Below are positions 1,930 through 12,089 of a stretch of 25,782 bases of DNA, one piece after another. The notes under the pieces were generated by a model. That model was not told where the DNA came from, ran no database searches, and worked only from the letters and a program-made list of their open reading frames with translations. Position numbers and translations under genes: made by a program. Origin of the DNA: a virus; IMG/VR virus record IMGVR_UViG_3300046467_001025, positions 1 through 25,782 of that record; one strand, given 5' to 3'. The number at the start of each line of letters is the position of its first letter. Position 1 is the first letter of the stretch.

Positions 1930-4083
1930 ATGATGCAGCTATCTATGTTCTACGGAGCTCGGGCCACCAAACCCACAAGGGTGGACTCGGATGAGTTCTG
2001 GGAGGACATAAGAACAGGGAAGTGGGAGACGGAGATAACAGATCTAAGAAATTTGCTCCGCTCGAAGGGCAAGGAGGCCTACAATGAAAAGAAGAAGGAG
2101 CTCTCGGCAATTACTATGTCTGGACTCTTCCTTCAACGTGCGGCTAACAGTATGGTCAAATACTCTGGTCTTATCCAGGGGGACATTGATTCTGTTGAGA
2201 ATCCGGAGCAGCTTAGGGACGAGCTCTCTCTGGATCCGCACGTTAGGGCCTCCTTCCTTTCTCCTTCCGGAAAAGGAGTTAAAATTGCTATCCGGGTTCC
2301 AGATAATCCTGAGAAACACAAGGAAGCATTCTTTGCAGCAGAACAGTATTTCCTGGAGAAACATGGAGTCACCATTGATCCATCCTGCAAAGATATTAAT
2401 CGGATCTGCTTCACCTCCTGGGATCCGGAGCTCAAAGGTAACGAGGATGCAATTCCGATTGAAGTTGGAGAGCGCCAGGAAATAGTTAAAACAGCTAGAC
2501 CCACTCAACAATATCAATATGGGACCGTTAGGTGGGGTGAGGTGTTTGAAAGTCAGGGGATGGTGCTCAAGGCGATTGGGAACACTATCCTGGTGCAATG
2601 CCCCTGGAGAGATCTCCATACCACTGGAAAAGATGGGGATCGATCCACTATCGTATTTACTGATGGAACTAAAGCTTTTAAATGTAGTCATGCCCATTGC
2701 GAAAGTCGTGGACCAAAAGACCTGGAGAATTATTTCACCAAGGGGGTCATTGCCAGGCACGCTGATCCATTCGAGAATAATTTTGCTGAGCCAATTGGCA
2801 GACCCCGAAAGACTAACCTGGTAAAAAAACAGGAACGTACAATTCAACCAATTGCAAAGGAGCTCCTGAATCCTCCTGGATTTGTTGGGGATTGGGCATC
2901 CTTCATTACTGATACTGCATGGTTCCCGCAGCCTGAGCTCGCCATTGGTGCTAGTTTGGCATTCACTGCTACTATGCTTGGTAGGAAAATTAGGGATGAA
3001 TCAGATATCAGACCAAATATATATGTTGCGGCCCTCGGAAGGACCGGAATAGGCAAGGAGCACGCTAGAAAGCTCACCAAGCTAATGTTTGCTCAAACAG
3101 GTGTCTCAGGGTTTGGAGCAGAGAAACTTTCAAGCAGGAGCGCAATTGAGCGCACGATTTCTGCTTCACCGTCCGCTTTGTACATGATTGATGAGTTCGG
3201 ACACTATATCTCTTCCATTATGAATCCCAACTCAAACTCACACCTGAGAGATGTTTCTTCCATGTTCCTGGAACTATATGGTTCGAGCTCAAGTAAGTTC
3301 TTTGGGACCGATAAGGCAAACGCCAGAGAAAATCCCAGGTTTGAGATCGATCAGCCAAGTGCATCAATTTATGGCACATCAACAAAAGAATCCTTTTGGG
3401 GATCCCTAACCAGTGAGGCTGTTAGTTCTGGAACACTCAATCGCTTCTGTATATTTGATGCACCGGAGGATAGACCGCCTGTTAATGAGGCAGGAATAAT
3501 TGGGAGCATACCAGTGGCACTCACTACCAAGGTTAGAGCATACAACGATATGCCTATTGACCCTGGTGCTAAAGGTAACATCACTGAGCTAAGTATCCCA
3601 AGGCCGTTGGTCATAACATCATCTGATGCAGCTAAGAAGATATTCCGGGCATTCCAGAAAGAAACACTGAGACTCTCAGATCTGGGAGCAGAGACCTCAT
3701 CAATGTGGGTGAGGGCTGCGGAGACTGCAAAGAAGATAGCACTCATCCTGGCTGGGTCCAGGTTCACAGATATTACTGCTGATGATGCAAACTATGGCTG
3801 CGAACTAACCTGCACTTTGGTGAAAAATGCGTGCGTCTCAATTAGAGAGAATCTAAGTGACAATGAGTATGAACGAGAAAGCAAAAGAGTTGAGACCATA
3901 ATTAGGAATAGTGGACCGAAGGGAATATCCATGAAAGATCTCGTCCAAAGAACACGGTTTCTCAAGTCCAGGATCCACCGAAAAGCATTGCTCGATGACC
4001 TGTATGAATCCGAGCTAATAAATAGGGAATCAAGAGCGATAGGTGTAAGCTCTAAACCGTCAATTGTCTGGTTTTGTGAATAG
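1930..4083 (+). CDS. primase-helicase fusion (VirE/BT4734-type AEP primase plus SF3/DUF3987-like ATPase)
   Basis: 717 residues with three visible parts. Residues about 60-180 form a primase-polymerase core of the VirE N-terminal/BT4734 type, with the acidic GDID motif at 84-87 and SPSGKGVKI at 111-119. Residues 224-257 carry a primase-like zinc motif (CPW, H230, then KCSHAHC). The C-terminal half is an ATPase with Walker A LGRTGIGK at 369-376 and Walker B YMIDEF at 418-423, resembling DUF3987-type phage helicases. It probably primes and unwinds DNA at the phage origin. The ribosome site GGGAGAG is 5-6 bases before an ATGATG pair, so the start may be either codon. No replicative DNA polymerase is in this window. 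A repeat-rich region begins at its stop codon. Confidence 0.8.
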   Translation: MMQLSMFYGARATKPTRVDSDEFWEDIRTGKWETEITDLRNLLRSKGKEAYNEKKKELSAITMSGLFLQRAANSMVKYSGLIQGDIDSVENPEQLRDELSLDPHVRASFLSPSGKGVKIAIRVPDNPEKHKEAFFAAEQYFLEKHGVTIDPSCKDINRICFTSWDPELKGNEDAIPIEVGERQEIVKTARPTQQYQYGTVRWGEVFESQGMVLKAIGNTILVQCPWRDLHTTGKDGDRSTIVFTDGTKAFKCSHAHCESRGPKDLENYFTKGVIARHADPFENNFAEPIGRPRKTNLVKKQERTIQPIAKELLNPPGFVGDWASFITDTAWFPQPELAIGASLAFTATMLGRKIRDESDIRPNIYVAALGRTGIGKEHARKLTKLMFAQTGVSGFGAEKLSSRSAIERTISASPSALYMIDEFGHYISSIMNPNSNSHLRDVSSMFLELYGSSSSKFFGTDKANARENPRFEIDQPSASIYGTSTKESFWGSLTSEAVSSGTLNRFCIFDAPEDRPPVNEAGIIGSIPVALTTKVRAYNDMPIDPGAKGNITELSIPRPLVITSSDAAKKIFRAFQKETLRLSDLGAETSSMWVRAAETAKKIALILAGSRFTDITADDANYGCELTCTLVKNACVSIRENLSDNEYERESKRVETIIRNSGPKGISMKDLVQRTRFLKSRIHRKALLDDLYESELINRESRAIGVSSKPSIVWFCE

Positions 4084-4097
4084 GTGTTACACCTATT
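4079..4097. promoter_or_regulatory. perfect 19-bp palindrome over the primase stop codon
   Basis: AATAGGTGT, one T, then ACACCTATT: nine-base arms with a one-base centre, overlapping the TAG stop of the primase-helicase gene. Its half-site ACACCTATT is the same word that recurs at 4230-4238 and inside the tandem repeats at 4285-4311. This suggests one protein recognises all of them, either as an operator or as replication-origin sites. Confidence 0.6.
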
Positions 4098-4284
4098 GAA
4101 TTGTGATACACCCAACAGAGGTAGCAATAGTAAGGTCTAGTAAGTAATAAGTGTAATATATATATGTATATGTACATACATAATATAAGGGTATTTAGGG
4201 GGGTATTATAGGGGATACCCTACACTTATACACCTATTGGCTGAGATCAATTGGAGTTACTGGGCTGGAAGCACATTTATAAAT
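4098..4284. other. AT-rich non-coding region, candidate DNA-unwinding stretch
   Basis: No convincing gene. The stretch from about 4125 to 4195 is very AT-rich, with runs of TA and a 10-bp palindrome TATGTACATA at 4169-4178. An imperfect hairpin GGGTAT/ATACCC lies at 4201-4220. A single ACACCTATT word is at 4230-4238. An AT-rich tract next to repeated binding words, directly after the primase-helicase gene, is the usual architecture of a phage or plasmid origin. A promoter for the terminase operon is an equally possible role. I found no clean -35/-10 pair. Confidence 0.4.
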
Positions 4285-4311
4285 TTACACCTATTACACC
4301 TATTACACCTA
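4285..4311. repeat. three tandem 9-bp repeats (TTACACCTA)
   Basis: TTACACCTA occurs three times head to tail without interruption at 4285-4293, 4294-4302 and 4303-4311. The array ends about 10 bases before the ribosome site (AAGGGA) of the small terminase gene. The unit shares ACACCTA with the palindrome at 4079-4097 and the single copy at 4230-4238. It is iteron-like or operator-like. Nine bases is slightly under one helical turn per repeat, so adjacent proteins would wrap around the DNA. Confidence 0.6.
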
Positions 4312-5222: not shown

Positions 5223-5311
5223 AGACTGAGAGAGAGAAGCACCTGGAGCGATTGAGATTCCTCCATGAAGACGCTTTAAAATATTACAAAAAAAAATATG
5301 AAAAAAAATGA
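5219..5311 (+). CDS. tiny charged peptide, 30 residues, GTG start
   Basis: A GTG at 5219 overlaps the previous stop and is preceded by AAGGAAG with ideal spacing. The peptide is highly charged and helix-forming (KTEREKHLERL, then KYYKKKYEKK). It overlaps the start of the large terminase gene by 14 bases, so its translation may feed ribosomes to that gene, whose ATG sits in an A-tract with no Shine-Dalgarno. A leader role is inference. The upstream extension of the same frame lacks protein character. Confidence 0.4.
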   Translation: MKTEREKHLERLRFLHEDALKYYKKKYEKK

Positions 5312-6722
5312 ATTAGCATCCACCCTGGAGAAGTTCCAGAAGCGTTACGTCAACAACCCAAATTTATTTGTCCAGGAGATCCTGGGTGCAATCCCGGATG
5401 ACTGGCAAGCGGATGTATTGGACATGGTAGCAGGAGCAGGAAAGTACAAAGAGCAAATAAGGCGTATAAGTTGTGTTTCGGGTCATGGAGTGGGCAAAAG
5501 TTGTTGCGCGTCCTGGGTGGCAATTTGGCATATGATCTTCCGTTTTCCACAAAAGACAATAGTGACAGCGCCCTCTCACTCGCAATTGCATGACGCATTG
5601 GGCTCAGAAGTTCGTGCATGGATAACGATGCTTCCCAGTGTAATCCAGGATCAATTAGAGGTCCTTACAGAGCAGATCCGGCTGAAGGCTGCACCCAACG
5701 AAAGTTTCATTTCGTTCAGGGTTTCCAGGCCCGAATCGAGCGAGACATTGGCTGGAGTGCATTCAGAGAACGTAATTTTAATTTGCGATGAAAGTTCTGC
5801 TATCCCGGCCCAGATATTTGAGAGTGCAGCATCATCTCAATCTGGGGAGCACGCCACGACTTTACTGTTAGGTAACGGCACTCGAGCAACAGGATTCTTC
5901 TACGACACGCACAATAAGTTAGCCAGGGATTGGGAGACCCGGCGCATTTCCTGTTTAGATTCAAAGCGAGTCTCAAAAAAATTCGTTGAAGAGATCAAGT
6001 CTCGATATTCCGAAAATTCCAATCAATGGCGGGTACGCGTCTTAGGTCTCTTCCCGGAAGCAGATGAGGATTCGATCATTCCCAGGCATTTAGTTGAGAA
6101 GTCTATTGACCGGAAAGTAGATCCGATTGGTGGCCCAGTAACGATTGGAGTTGATGTAGCTCGTTTTGGTCAAGATAGCTCCGCTATCGCATTACGCCAG
6201 GGGAACACACTATTGGGCAATGTACAGACAAAGCGCGGCCTGGATACTATGCAAGTTGCAGGGTGGGTTAGGTCAGAGATGGAGGTCCTCAAGAAGAAGA
6301 AGCTTGAGATTGGCGATGTTTGTGTGGATTCCATAGGAATCGGAGCGGGGGTTGTAGATAAGTTGTTATCCGATGGCATAGATTGTCGCGGTATCAATGT
6401 TTCTGAGGCTCCCTCTATAAAGGGGCAGCATCTCAACTTACGCTCCGAGCTCTGGGAGAAGTGCAAGGAATGGTTCGAGGGCCGTGATGTAGTCATCCCC
6501 AATGATGAACAATTAGTAGCAGAGCTCTGTTCGGTCCGCTACAACTATTCTGCTTCCGGAAAAATAAAAGTTGAGAGTAAGGACGAGATCCGCCGCCGTC
6601 TTGGCCGCAATGCATCTCCCGATGCAGCAGACGCCCTCATTTTAACATTTGCCTCATATGCCACCAGGAAGTCTATCCCCTGGAACAAGCCCCTCATCCG
6701 TGAAATGCCTGGAATAGTATAA
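5298..6722 (+). CDS. terminase large subunit (packaging ATPase/nuclease)
   Basis: 474 residues, normal length for this family. The ATPase has Walker A SGHGVGKS at 61-68, Walker B VILICDES at 159-166, and the coupling motif TTLLLGN at 187-193. The RNase H-like nuclease has its acidic residues in GVDVARFG (D286), VCVDSIGIGAG (D344) and SPDAADALI near the C-terminus. It drives DNA into the prohead through the portal and cuts the concatemer. All catalytic motifs are intact. It overlaps a 30-residue ORF at its start and has no clear ribosome site of its own. A repeat-rich gap follows before the portal gene. Confidence 0.95.
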   Translation: MKKNELASTLEKFQKRYVNNPNLFVQEILGAIPDDWQADVLDMVAGAGKYKEQIRRISCVSGHGVGKSCCASWVAIWHMIFRFPQKTIVTAPSHSQLHDALGSEVRAWITMLPSVIQDQLEVLTEQIRLKAAPNESFISFRVSRPESSETLAGVHSENVILICDESSAIPAQIFESAASSQSGEHATTLLLGNGTRATGFFYDTHNKLARDWETRRISCLDSKRVSKKFVEEIKSRYSENSNQWRVRVLGLFPEADEDSIIPRHLVEKSIDRKVDPIGGPVTIGVDVARFGQDSSAIALRQGNTLLGNVQTKRGLDTMQVAGWVRSEMEVLKKKKLEIGDVCVDSIGIGAGVVDKLLSDGIDCRGINVSEAPSIKGQHLNLRSELWEKCKEWFEGRDVVIPNDEQLVAELCSVRYNYSASGKIKVESKDEIRRRLGRNASPDAADALILTFASYATRKSIPWNKPLIREMPGIV

Positions 6723-6724
6723 AA

Positions 6725-6790
6725 GTGTTACCGTGTTACCGCGTTACCGGGTAACAGTAATTTGTTACTATTCGTTACCGGGTAACGGTA
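6725..6790. promoter_or_regulatory. array of GTTACC half-sites (operator-like or late control region)
   Basis: GTTACC occurs at 6727-6732, 6735-6740 and 6743-6748, an exact 8-base spacing. Inverted GGTAAC follows at 6750-6755. A second perfect inverted pair GTTACC-G-GGTAAC lies at 6774-6786, and an isolated GTTAC at 6764-6768 is between them. Two identical 13-bp palindromes plus direct half-sites in 66 non-coding bases strongly suggest a repressor or activator binding region ahead of the structural operon. The word differs from the ACACCTA repeats before TerS, so a second DNA-binding protein is likely. Confidence 0.6.
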
Positions 6791-6814
6791 ATTTCCTATG
6801 GACTTCCAATAAGC

Positions 6815-6843
6815 TTGACTTTAAGTTGTCTTCGAGTTAGTGT
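6815..6843 (+). promoter_or_regulatory. weak sigma70-like promoter candidate before the portal gene
   Basis: TTGACT at 6815-6820 is a good -35 match. A 17-base spacer leads to TAGTGT at 6838-6843, which is a poor -10. It lies between the GTTACC array and the portal start, where a late-operon promoter would be expected. The portal ATG at 6906 has no obvious Shine-Dalgarno. Low confidence. Confidence 0.25.
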
Positions 6844-6905
6844 GCCTCTATATGTAGATTGGTCATACCACTTTACCAATTATCAATAACATAAACGCAC
6901 AATAC

Positions 6906-9197
6906 ATGGCCCTAACCGACTCCGAGATAAGATCCCAAACAGCAGAGCTCGAAGCAGAGCAGATTCGCCTGGCGGGTGATGAGCCAATGGATGAGGATGA
7001 GCTCGAGTCTATAGTTGCAGGGCTTATTGATGATGCCCAGGACTACATTGACCAGACCGAGGCTCTTGATCGCAACCAGGCAAATGACTATTTCCAGGGG
7101 CGGCCATTTGGTAATGAAGAAGACGGGCGCAGCCAGGTAGTCTCTCGAGATGTTCGCGACACTGTGGCGCTAATGATGCCCCAGGTTATGCGGACCTTTT
7201 TCGGGTCAGAGAAGGTTGTTGAATTCCAACCTCGCGGCCCCGAAGATGTTGCGTTATGCGAACAAGCCACAGATTTTGTAAACCAAGTTGTTCTTAACCA
7301 GGACAATGAGGGGTTTTCAACTTTTTACAATATATTCCGGGATGCCTTGGTCAAGAGGATTGGAGTGGCCAAAGTAGACTGGGTTAGTAGAGAGGAGGTT
7401 GAGCACGAAGAGTATACCGGGCTGGATGACCAGGGTCTGCAAGCATTAATGTCTGACCCAGATATCGAAGGTTCATCTTTAGAATCGTACCCGGATCCAA
7501 ATTTTGTTCCACCACCGCCACAACCGCCACAACAACCGATCTCTCCCGGCGGACCGCAGCCCGCGCCACCGCAGAACATGGAAGCTCCGCAGTTGCACGA
7601 TGTTGTGATCCGCCGTCTTACTAGGGAGGGGAAAATAACGATTGAAGCTTTGCCTCCAGAAGAATTCATCATTGATCGCAGAGCTAAGGGACTTTTAGAA
7701 GATGAATTCACTATTTGCGGCCATAGACGTTATTTGACTGTCAGTGAATTAGTTTCAATGGGGTATGACTATGAGGATATGCTCGACCTGGCCGGGGATG
7801 AAGACTCTTTCGGCACAAACACGGAGTTGCTCAGTCGCAATCCGTTGGGTAATTACGCAGATCATTTGGACGCAGGGGAAGCGAATAAAAGAGTCCTATA
7901 TGTTGAGGCATATTGTAAAGTGGATTTTGGAGGTTCAGGAATCGCTAGTCTCCGCCGCTTTTGTTGCGCTGGGTCTCATTTTAAATTGCTACATCATAGT
8001 CCAGTTAACGATGTACCGTTTCAAATCTTTTCTGGCTACAAGGAGCCGCACCTTTGGAAGGGCCAAAGTGTGGCGGATTTGACCAGCGATATTCAGAAAA
8101 TTAAGAGCTCCGTTTTACGTTCAACATTAGACAGTCTCAGCAAGAGTATATTTCCAGACACCTGGGCCGTTGAGGGACAATGCAGCCTTGACGATCTAAG
8201 TTCTAATCGAGTCGGAAAAATAATCCGCACCAGGGCTCCAGGAATGATTGGCGAATTTTCAACATCATTCAATGGAAAGGAAGCTTTTCCGATGTTGGAC
8301 TATTTAGATGAGGTAAAGGGTGACAGGACCGGAATGTCCAAAGCGTCACTCGGTTTAGATCCATCGGCGCTTCAATCATCGACAAAAGCAGCAGTATCTG
8401 CGACTGTGGCAGCTTCGGCTGCACAATTAGAGCTCCTATGCAGGGTATTCGCAGAAACTGGGATGAAGCCTTTATTTAAAAAGATTCTAAAATTATTACA
8501 TACTCACCAGGACAAGGCCCGAATGGTTCGTTTACGGAACGAATGGATTCAGGTGGATCCACAGACCTGGAACCAGATGGACGTTTCAGTCAATGTTGCC
8601 CTGGGCCTGGGAACAAACGAGGAGCGAATGGGAATGCTGGCGGGTTTAGCTGCAAAGCAGGAACAAATTCTCGAGAAGCAGGGACCAGAGAATCCATTGG
8701 TTAACTTCCAGCAGTATCATACTACATTGGCAAAAATGACCGAGTTATCTGGATACAAGGACGTACAATCTTTCTGGACCAATCCATCGACTTATCAAGC
8801 GCCGCCCCCGCCCCCTCCGCCAGAGGATAGTCCAGATGAAATTTTCGCCAAAGCACAAGCTGCGAAGGCCACCGCAGATATTACACGGGACCAGGAGAAA
8901 CTCAAATTAGATCGCGAGAAAATGATTCGAGAGGATGATTTAAACAGGGACAAATTAGATGCAGATCTTTCGATGAAGAAAGACGAGCTCGAGAGTAAAT
9001 ATCAGACAACAATTGATCAGACAGAAATACGGGGACAAATTGAAAAGGACCGTGAGCAGATAAAGCTGGAGCAAATGCAACAACAACAAGCTCAGCAAGC
9101 TCCGCCTCCGATGCCCCCGCAGGATATGAATCCAGAGCAGATGGGTCCACCATCGATACCGGACTTTCCGCCTGACCAGATGCCTTTACCATCGTAA
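6906..9197 (+). CDS. portal protein (SU10 p19-like)
   Basis: 763 residues. The N-terminal region (FQGRPFGNEEDGRSQVVSRDV near 63-83, then MMPQVMRTFFGSEKVVEFQP) is typical of the p19-like portal family found with SU10-type capsids. It forms the dodecameric DNA gate at the packaging vertex, docking the terminase and later the tail. Two features look added to the core: a proline/glutamine-rich segment at about 197-228 and a C-terminal third with a long charged coiled coil (about 640-715) ending in a Gln/Pro/Met-rich tail. The C-terminal part could form a barrel or crown inside the capsid (inference). It is followed directly by small head genes and scaffold, the usual order. Confidence 0.85.
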   Translation: MALTDSEIRSQTAELEAEQIRLAGDEPMDEDELESIVAGLIDDAQDYIDQTEALDRNQANDYFQGRPFGNEEDGRSQVVSRDVRDTVALMMPQVMRTFFGSEKVVEFQPRGPEDVALCEQATDFVNQVVLNQDNEGFSTFYNIFRDALVKRIGVAKVDWVSREEVEHEEYTGLDDQGLQALMSDPDIEGSSLESYPDPNFVPPPPQPPQQPISPGGPQPAPPQNMEAPQLHDVVIRRLTREGKITIEALPPEEFIIDRRAKGLLEDEFTICGHRRYLTVSELVSMGYDYEDMLDLAGDEDSFGTNTELLSRNPLGNYADHLDAGEANKRVLYVEAYCKVDFGGSGIASLRRFCCAGSHFKLLHHSPVNDVPFQIFSGYKEPHLWKGQSVADLTSDIQKIKSSVLRSTLDSLSKSIFPDTWAVEGQCSLDDLSSNRVGKIIRTRAPGMIGEFSTSFNGKEAFPMLDYLDEVKGDRTGMSKASLGLDPSALQSSTKAAVSATVAASAAQLELLCRVFAETGMKPLFKKILKLLHTHQDKARMVRLRNEWIQVDPQTWNQMDVSVNVALGLGTNEERMGMLAGLAAKQEQILEKQGPENPLVNFQQYHTTLAKMTELSGYKDVQSFWTNPSTYQAPPPPPPPEDSPDEIFAKAQAAKATADITRDQEKLKLDREKMIREDDLNRDKLDADLSMKKDELESKYQTTIDQTEIRGQIEKDREQIKLEQMQQQQAQQAPPPMPPQDMNPEQMGPPSIPDFPPDQMPLPS

Positions 9198-10662: not shown

Positions 10663-12089
10663 ATGGCAATTGTTTCAAACACTTTTGAAACGTATCAAGG
10701 CATAGGCAACAGAGAGGACCTCGCGAATACGATCTGAACAAATTGGATCGAAATCGGGTGAATTGCTGGGATCCCCTAACGGTAATGCCGAGGGCAATCA
10801 GCAGCCAAGACTGCGAAAGTGCAAATAGTAGCAGTACGGTTCAACGACTAGAGAGTGAGCAGCACAAGCGATAACCTCTCCAAGAGCGCCCGACACCTAA
10901 CGGTGATGATATAGTCTGAGCTATACGGAGACGTATAGAAGTAGTAATTAAAAAAGCTACGGTAACAAAACTGATAATATATCGCCAAGCGACGTCCCTT
11001 TCATGTCTATGATTGGACGCTCAAAAGCCAAGAACACTCTAGTAGAGTGGCAAACAGATGCGTGAACAAACTAGCGCCCTTAGCCAGTAATGGCTATTGC
11101 AAATCCTGTGAATTGCGGGGACGCCCAGAACGGGTAATCCGCAGCCAAGCCTCCAAGGGAGGACGGTTCAACGACCATTCCGAAAGGAAGTACACTCAAG
11201 TGAGTGGAAGCGCAGGAAACCCCGGAAGGGGTTATGAGATGGTCTCATCTAGTTAGGAATAACTAGCAGTCTTATGGCGGTCCAAAGATTAACGACTTTG
11301 GGCGAAGATAATGTAGCATCCGCAGTGGCAACTAATGCACAGATCGAAGGTGATGAGTACGCCTTTGATGCAGTCGTACCAACGGTACGTTTACAAAACT
11401 ATACTCAGATTTCTCGTAAGACAATAATCGTGTCTGGTTCCCAGCAAGCTGGAAATCATGCAGGAGTTTCTTCGGAGCTCGCATATGGTTTAGCTAAGCG
11501 GAGCAAGGAATTAAAGCGCGACATGGAATCGTGCTTGACTAACAAAGTGGCAAAAGCCGCCGGAGCTTCAGGAACTGCCAGGAAACTAGGTGGACTTGAA
11601 ACCTGGATTTCATCCAACACATCTCGCCATAGTGGCGGGTCTGGTGCTGGAGGTGGTGCTGCACCAGTGGATGGCACTCAAAGGGCCTTCACCGTTGCAA
11701 TGTTGAAAACCGTTATCCAGGCTTGTTATTCGGCTGGATCGGATTCCAATACCATTATGGTTGGTCCATTTAATAAAGGAGTCCTCTCCGGCTTTGCAGG
11801 TCGTGATGGAGCCCGTCAGATGGGATCAGAGAAGAAAATCAATGTAGCTGCTGATCTTTTTTCCTCCGATTTTGGAGATTACAAGGTAATTCCAAATCGT
11901 TTCCAGCGCGATCGCTCGGCATTCATCATTGATCCAGAATATTGGTCTGTGGCGTATTACCGTGATTTCCGCCAGGAAGAAGTTGCGAAAACTGGCGATG
12001 CAATCAAGCGCGCGCTTTTGGTAGAATTTTCTTTGGTCTCAAAAAACCAGGGAAGTTCGGGAATTATCGCGGATTTGACCACAAGCTAA
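10663..12089 (+). CDS. major capsid protein, SU10/DUF5309 type, split by two group I introns
   Basis: Spliced gene: exons 10663-10735, 10974-11063 and 11314-12089, total 939 nt coding for 312 residues plus stop. Exon 1 encodes residues 1-24 (starting MAIVSNTFETYQGIGNREDL), exon 2 restores YNISPSDVPFMS and ends EWQTDA, and exon 3 continues LASAVATNAQIEGDEY. The joined N-terminus matches the conserved start of SU10/DUF5309 capsid proteins. Without splicing translation stops at a UGA after residue 24. The visible ORF from ATG 11274 would begin with 13 intron-encoded residues and lack the conserved N-terminal 54, so it is not the full capsid protein. A ribosome site AAGGA lies at 10650-10654. Both introns sit in phase 1. 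Exon 3 encodes the HK97-fold body, with a Gly/Ser-rich loop near SGGSGAGGGAA. Confidence 0.88.
10736..10973 (+). ncRNA. group I intron 1 in the capsid gene (238 nt, subgroup IA-like)
   Basis: Helices paired by hand: P1 between exon CGATCT (10730-10735) and internal guide GGATCG (10745-10750), with the required U-G wobble at the splice site. P3 is TCGGG 10754-10758 with CCCGA 10889-10893. P4 pairs GCTG with CAGC (P element GAATTGCTGGGA, Q element CAATCAGCAGCCAAG). P6 is ACTGC 10810-10814 with GCAGT 10831-10835. P7 is GACTA 10846-10850 with TAGTC 10912-10916, inside the R/S signatures TTCAACGACTA and GATATAGTCT. P7.1 is GAGAG with CTCTC. P8 is CACC with GGTG. P9 is CTATACG/CGTATAG with a GAGA tetraloop (10921-10938). 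The last base is G (10973), as expected. There is no internal ORF. The P7.1 insertion points to subgroup IA, the usual phage class. Confidence 0.9.
11064..11313 (+). ncRNA. group I intron 2 in the capsid gene (250 nt, subgroup IA-like)
   Basis: P1 pairs exon GCGT (11060-11063) with guide GCGC (11074-11077). P2 is AGCCA/TGGCT with a GTAA loop (11082-11095). P3 is TCCTG 11104-11108 with CAGGA 11213-11217. P4 is TGCGG with CCGCA. P6 is CCTCC/GGAGG. P7 is GACCA 11173-11177 with TGGTC 11240-11244. P7.1 is TTCC-GAAA-GGAA and P7.2 CACTC/GAGTG. P8 is AACCCC-GGAA-GGGGTT (11218-11233). P9 is CTAGTTA-GGAA-TAACTAG (11249-11266). An extra hairpin CCAAAG/CTTTGG (11282-11301) follows. The final G is 11313, and a P10 is possible between 3' exon TAG and CTA next to the guide. 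The intron starts with the same GAACAAA as intron 1 but is otherwise diverged. No homing ORF; a 69-codon open frame inside is incidental. Confidence 0.9.

Follow-up and report, generated by a model that had tools for sequence, protein, structure and literature searches.

Short palindromic or repeated sequences between genes have been described in several systems. In T4-like phages, PeSLs are intergenic stem-loops that lie beside promoters, occur at high density and are linked to gene swapping (PMC4503421). Bacterial REP sequences and REPINs are dispersed extragenic palindromes that form hairpin doublets (PMC3116915). Mycobacteriophages possess start-associated sequences, short words repeated in short intergenic spaces and mostly in one orientation (PMC3203893), and stoperators, likewise repeated intergenic words of phages (PMC9283540). 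These accounts, and the comparisons below, refer to excerpts of the four sources.

The array of GTTACC words studied here lies between the genes for the terminase large subunit (terL) and the portal protein, in a stretch of viral DNA of 25,782 nucleotides that was analyzed as a whole and is called the window. As in the PeSL excerpt, a predicted stem-loop is found next to a promoter-like site in intergenic DNA, with a presumed tie to phage gene swapping. In contrast to PeSL carriers, the window phage is not of the T4 type, as judged from its gene order and its profile matches for TerL, portal and major head (phrog_2/5902, 1216 and 1328), and its relatives are phages other than T4 type. Moreover, the hairpin stands upstream of the promoter-like site, some copies leave no room for a promoter, and the high density of PeSLs contrasts with one GTTAC locus per contig, the contigs being fragments. 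With intrinsic (Rho-independent) terminators the element shares a predicted hairpin soon after a stop codon and a T-leaning tail, and two relatives (L007, L149) have hairpins with a seven-T tail in the same slot; unlike terminators, it has duplicated arms and only a short run of T, and a terminator scan was blank. Like the REPINs of the excerpt, it comprises a doublet of palindromes that can fold into a hairpin (the window fold; L093, L098), but it occurs on phage contigs, at one locus each, and its word drifts between lineages. As short repeated intergenic words of phages, the copies resemble stoperators and start-associated sequences; unlike these, which according to the excerpts have many sites per genome, they are limited to one locus per contig and patchy among close relatives. 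The GTTAC element hence lacks a testable defining feature of PeSL, REPIN and stoperators or start-associated sequences alike, and our search of open-licence papers found no description of a GTTAC hairpin element.

Results

The array follows terL (ORF at 5298..6722, plus strand, stop codon 6720-6722; matched by phrog_2 and phrog_9, profiles of the terminase large subunit) and precedes the portal gene (ORF at 6906..9197, plus strand; phrog_1216 portal protein, E 3e-144), the first of the structural block. It consists of two units on the plus strand. Unit 1 (6727..6763), by direct reading, has GTTACC words at 6727, 6735 and 6743, that is, in exact 8-base steps, and a palindrome at 6743-6755 followed by AGTAATTT; the third tandem word doubles as the left half of this palindrome. 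Unit 2 (6764..6794) reads GTTACT-ATTC-GTTACC-G-GGTAAC-GGTAAT-TT; it represents the dispersed element treated below in its standard form and has an identical copy in the relative L002. With the covariance model R1, unit 2 scored 56.1 bits, the R1 alignment including unit 2 itself, and the part of unit 1 at 6735-6763 matched as one 31-position unit with a shortened spacer (35.8 bits). The palindrome GTTACCGGGTAAC occurs at 6743-6755 and 6774-6786, a step of 31 bases that arises because a 22-nt block, CGTTACCGGGTAAC[A/G]GTAATTT, is repeated at 6742-6763 and 6773-6794. This block had escaped the sequence-only reading, which had otherwise described the three words at an 8-base period and the two palindromes 31 bases apart at the place where we located them.

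The array is real, exact and beyond chance. It had been called non-coding, and it indeed lies in the terL-portal gap, inside no listed ORF of at least 60 aa. Dinucleotide shuffling of this gap bore out its non-random nature, since none of 20,000 shuffles contained the 8-bp triplet and none the two palindromes. The whole-genome motif search that had been suggested found GTTACC 20 times on both strands of the window against 7.65 expected, a count reached by 0 of 100 shuffles. Exact GTTACCGGGTAAC is confined to the two sites in the 25.8-kb record, and up to two mismatches add only the overlapping tandem words.

Downstream of the array, the conserved part of the gap contains a promoter-like TTGACT - 17 - TAGTGT at 6815..6843 on the plus strand (alignment A2, in which the L007 row was miscut and is not relied on). 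For comparison with relatives, a TerL search of viral contigs was used with the best 80 of 146 related stretches, and a second scan with the L105 TerL gave 14 loci. From 35 loci, minus seven identical ones (L012, L013, L015, L023, L025, L028, L029), a set of 28 distinct terL-portal gaps was obtained. It omits non-spanning loci (L004, L024), loci whose contig ends before portal (L142, L148, L153), loci of the same phages as L145 and L095 (L104 and L105, respectively) or of the same contigs as L095 and L105 (L140 and L141), and the more distant L026, L027 and L030-L080. The pattern TTGANN-N16-18-[TG]ANNNT was present in 27 of the 28 gaps, L022 being the single failure, at a shuffled background of 0.13 per gap; in L145 and L149, it matched on a TTGAT just within the box judged to be the -35. 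A strict sigma-70 scan of 6400-7200 flagged no site, and the promoter call therefore rests on conservation, from which a conserved promoter for the portal/structural operon appears likely. The array was thus rightly placed ahead of the structural operon, directly upstream of a likely promoter; the operator role attached to it found no support.

Eight of the 28 gaps, that of the window included, contain the GTTAC element, which is missing in the other 20. Among phages with 85-91% identical TerL, the unit GTTACTATTCGTTACCGGGTAAC is carried by L002, L003 and L005, in L003 after a 188-nt insert and with rearranged downstream arms, and the array is absent from the gaps of L001, L006, L007 and L008. 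A more distant lineage is similarly divided: L095/L105, L104/L145, L143 and L149 carry the unit or a drifted form, and the gaps of L144, L146, L147, L150 and L152 contain no GTTAC unit. The terL stop and the -35-like box are separated by 5-15 nt in 13 of the 28 gaps, by 53-177 nt in ten, all array-holding, and by 616-937 nt in four, which have an inserted gene. Judged by these distance classes, the arrays appear to be optional insertions that come after the stop codon and before the promoter. The slot is permissive, as relatives have nothing, other-word hairpins or inserted genes there.

This comparison also bears on the proposal that the 8-base period reflects cooperative protein binding. Spacing is not conserved, an outcome that this proposal itself had named as refuting it: the window has two 8-bp steps and L002 has one, and other copies have half-site steps of 10 bp or, in L143, another step; words change, and the array is often missing among relatives. 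An operator with a fixed 8-bp period was rejected, as neither spacing nor presence is conserved. The same reading had proposed at least two separate control words near the terminase genes, GTTACC and an ACACCTA family. Their contrast stands: the ACACCTA family was kept in all five sequences spanning the primase-terS gap, with substitutions in L004 and L006, and therefore has the look of a constrained control region, which the GTTACC array has not. In the window the family occupies 4081-4311 and includes a palindrome located at the stop codon of the primase gene as well as three words that recur every 9 bp.

Hairpins built from other words occur in the same slot. L007 carries CGGACTTACTTCGGACTGTCCGATGAAGTCCGACTTTTTTT after its inserted gene (z -3.79); this CGGACTT hairpin ends in TTTTTTT, and a related CGGA form, also with a seven-T tail, lies directly 3' of the GTTAC unit of L149. 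AGGAAWCATG repeats are common to L006 and L003, and the slots of L150 and L152 hold hairpins of CGTTTGTT-like words, L150 also GTGGAG words. Direct 6-mer pairs exceeded shuffles in the window, L002, L006, L003, L007, L149 and L150 and were not above shuffles in L005, L095, L104, L143 and L152. For inverted 6-mer pairs, the excess was clear in the window, L002, L006, L150 and L152 and weak in L095 and L149, with L003 and L005 not above shuffles. The L007 slice in this count started inside its element and is not relied on. Microrepeat counts hence back a class of multi-arm hairpins only in part.

Three observations concern the surroundings of the slot. L003 has an insert at the terL 3' end (2408-2591) whose 27-nt inverted ends are 85% complementary and separated by 130 nt, and which has the look of a small non-autonomous mobile element; a terL-like 3' end lies between this insert and the GTTAC element. 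In the portal 5' leader, an inverted repeat ATTGGT...ACCAAT was seen by eye in the window (6858-6880), and a different 16-18-nt inverted repeat is located at the same place in L001 (4477-4520) and L005 (1494-1537). In the gaps of L020 and L021, 3' of the promoter-like site, a stretch of about 95 nt is bounded by CAGACGATA...TATCGTCTG and conserves its inner words; for L020, an Rfam search gave nothing of weight, and the stretch is probably a structured leader RNA.

Outside the terL-portal gap, we found the unit at other gene junctions. Viral contigs scanned with exact and degenerate patterns yielded 11, 16, 14 and 23 stretches, some of which match by chance or within coding sequence, and the dispersed unit of about 31 nt has the consensus 5'-GTTACT-ATTC-GTTACY-N-RGTAAC-RGTAAT-TT. 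In L089, L093, L098, L100 and L103 it stands between a gene of unknown family and a replication gene (weak profile matches), it lies 3' of an integrase gene in L096 and L099 and 3' of a 464-aa gene in L097, and further real copies are present in L102, L084 and L108. At 13 of 16 loci, which are not independent of each other, the unit starts 2-16 nt past a same-strand stop codon. Three loci depart from this placement: L003 (188 nt, behind the insert), L102, where no upstream gene was seen, and L084, whose element is reversed relative to its genes and overlaps the end of an HNH gene. A spacer of 9-23 nt separates the element from the start of the following gene in L093, L096, L099 and L097. The window and every contig examined, the latter being fragments, held one GTTAC locus each. 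Chance or coding matches (L087, L088, L091, L101, L125, L127) were set aside, and L092, L124 and L128, which also matched the scans, were left aside. Of eight stretches with CGGACTTACTTCGGAC, three (L132, L135, L137) are hairpin-like and five are not.

A site for packaging (pac or cos), replication or recombination that lies near terL by chance is a most improbable explanation. That the element directly follows terL in eight distinct gaps, the window's among them, would suit such a site, yet 20 of the 28 gaps have no copy, and copies occur also at replication, integrase and other junctions. More probable, although still doubtful in our view, is a REP-like palindromic repeat, mobile or neutral, that has no function for the phage and is tolerated just after stop codons. 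That one sequence recurs at unrelated junctions, that its presence is patchy and its copy number varies, and that it resembles hairpin-forming REPIN doublets, as far as the excerpt describes them (PMC3116915), agrees with such a repeat. A single locus per contig instead of many copies is not, and the degenerate pattern gave two chance-like matches in 84,980 genomes (L106, L107), so that no host reservoir was seen; furthermore, tail orientation and pairing are conserved, which suggests selection on RNA.

A host chromosomal repeat was rejected for the 84,980 genomes, as their two matches, L106 (cyanobacterial MAG) and L107 (Thermoplasmata MAG), are without a full unit with RGTAAT tail. Among isolated phages, a search of phage records at BLAST sensitivity found no copy, with one weak partial match at E 6. 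In L107 (2342-2374), four GTTACY half-sites are arranged symmetrically with 4-nt spacers outside a one-base centre; this looks like a genuine operator-type palindrome and probably has no relation to the phage element. Another viral group (L122, L123, L126, L129, L130) has a dense GTTAC/GTAAC array soon after an ORF of about 681 aa, which was not counted as the 31-nt element.

In the window, a long RNA hairpin joining units 1 and 2 is predicted at 6735..6792 on the plus strand (-24.4 kcal/mol, z -2.17), and 5 of 200 shuffles fold as well. A 95-nt stretch of the window gave nearly equal values for the gene strand and the other strand (-26.9 vs -25.9). Pairing was assessed in alignment A1, a hand-chosen set of 12 distinct units of standard spacing that omits window unit 1, L002 unit 2, L003, L143, L108 and the second units of L098, L100, L103 and L097. 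Its inner stem is paired in 100% of cells, in 12 of 12 distinct units, and shows two double changes, GC to CG (L149) and CG to UA (L097), in one sequence each. Two double-change pairs were reached by 8 of 500 shuffles and the paired-cell share by 21 of 500, relatedness being retained in these figures. Outside A1, L143 keeps pairing with GTTACA/TGTAAC. When G-T and A-C mismatches in the inverted repeats were scored alike on the gene strand, 13 G-T and two A-C were counted at 16 GTTAC loci, of which four are close relatives. L108 folds into a 17-bp hairpin with three G-T pairs and a z of -5.12 on the gene strand versus -3.65 on the other strand. Of 15 loci, 11 give a better fold on the motif strand than on the complementary one, and a fold z of at most -2 was reached in nine; weak folds come from single-unit loci (L005, z +1.16; L096, -0.15; L084, -1.05; L143, -1.27; L095, -1.41; L003, -1.44). 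A simple terminator scan of 6400-7200 gave no terminator-like site, and the T run after the stem comprises only 2-4 T in most GTTAC copies, the window tail being TTTCC. A known Rfam RNA was rejected, the best match in 6650-6920 being P36 with 17.4 bits against a gathering score of 36 (E 0.3).

Formation of an RNA hairpin by the GTTAC unit is moderately supported. The opposing assumption is a DNA operator, where a phage or host regulator binds direct and inverted GTTACY half-sites and thereby controls the promoter of the portal gene. The 10-bp spacing of half-sites in most units, arrays upstream of the promoter-like site in terL slots, an array in L102 upstream of a small ORF that by eye appears XRE-like, and the symmetric layout of four half-sites in both L108 and the Thermoplasmata match L107 would agree with an operator. 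Nevertheless, we consider it unlikely: word spacing and number vary among relatives, 20 of 28 gaps keep the promoter-like site and do without the array, and one locus per contig means no regulon within the fragments examined. Double changes that alter the word yet keep pairing, and the bias of G-T over A-C, likewise speak against a protein site, to which an RNA hairpin is preferred as more likely.

Discussion

The explanation that we favor, and to which we give about an even chance, is that the array comprises two copies of an exchangeable, multi-arm intercistronic RNA hairpin that marks or attenuates the 3' end of the terL message before the next promoter. Located right after the terL stop codon and ahead of the presumed portal/structural promoter, the element would be transcribed, and the arms of both units might then pair into one long nested hairpin that, at the RNA level, marks where the upstream message ends. 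Such a hairpin could attenuate or end read-through from the packaging genes, or it could protect the terL mRNA end. The extra GTTACC words at 8-bp steps would accordingly represent duplicated 5' arms and not separate protein half-sites; additional duplicated arms are found, one in L002 and others in L097 and L084. We infer that the element is transcribed, that it spreads horizontally and that it either protects the message or terminates transcription, termination staying inferential since the T run is short. In the four copies whose next gene begins 9-23 nt downstream, complete termination would deprive co-directional genes of transcription, which makes attenuation or protection of the mRNA more plausible there than a hard stop.

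We may further speculate, with only a small chance of being right, that multi-arm RNA hairpins with rapidly changing words but a constant layout are exchanged at the terL-portal junction of these phages, which would make them exchangeable boundary modules. The layout kept would be tandem 5' arms followed by inverted arms, and all arms would drift jointly, as from GTTACC to CTTACC in L149 and to GTTACA in L143. Joint drift would need concerted copying, for example by template switching. The modules would also flank inserted 2OG-Fe(II) oxygenase genes (L003, L084). If true, such boundary modules would let phages insert genes between operons without merging transcripts. Genes of this oxygenase family (phrog_61) adjoin GTTAC elements at different genome places, at 2670-3299 in L003 and at 793-1371 on the minus strand in L084.

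If the hairpin explanation is right, uncultured tailed phages would insulate or trim adjacent operons via small swappable RNA hairpins, and the elements would indicate places in the late region where new genes can enter. Repeated palindromic words by a promoter are not necessarily an operator, and it was the comparison of relatives that separated the conserved ACACCTA region from the fast-changing GTTACC array. Further downstream in the window, between the scaffold gene and the major head ORF, we noted two group I introns (10667-10938 and 11054-11266; Rfam RF00028, 85.9 and 77.6 bits), both of which apparently split the 5' part of the major head gene.
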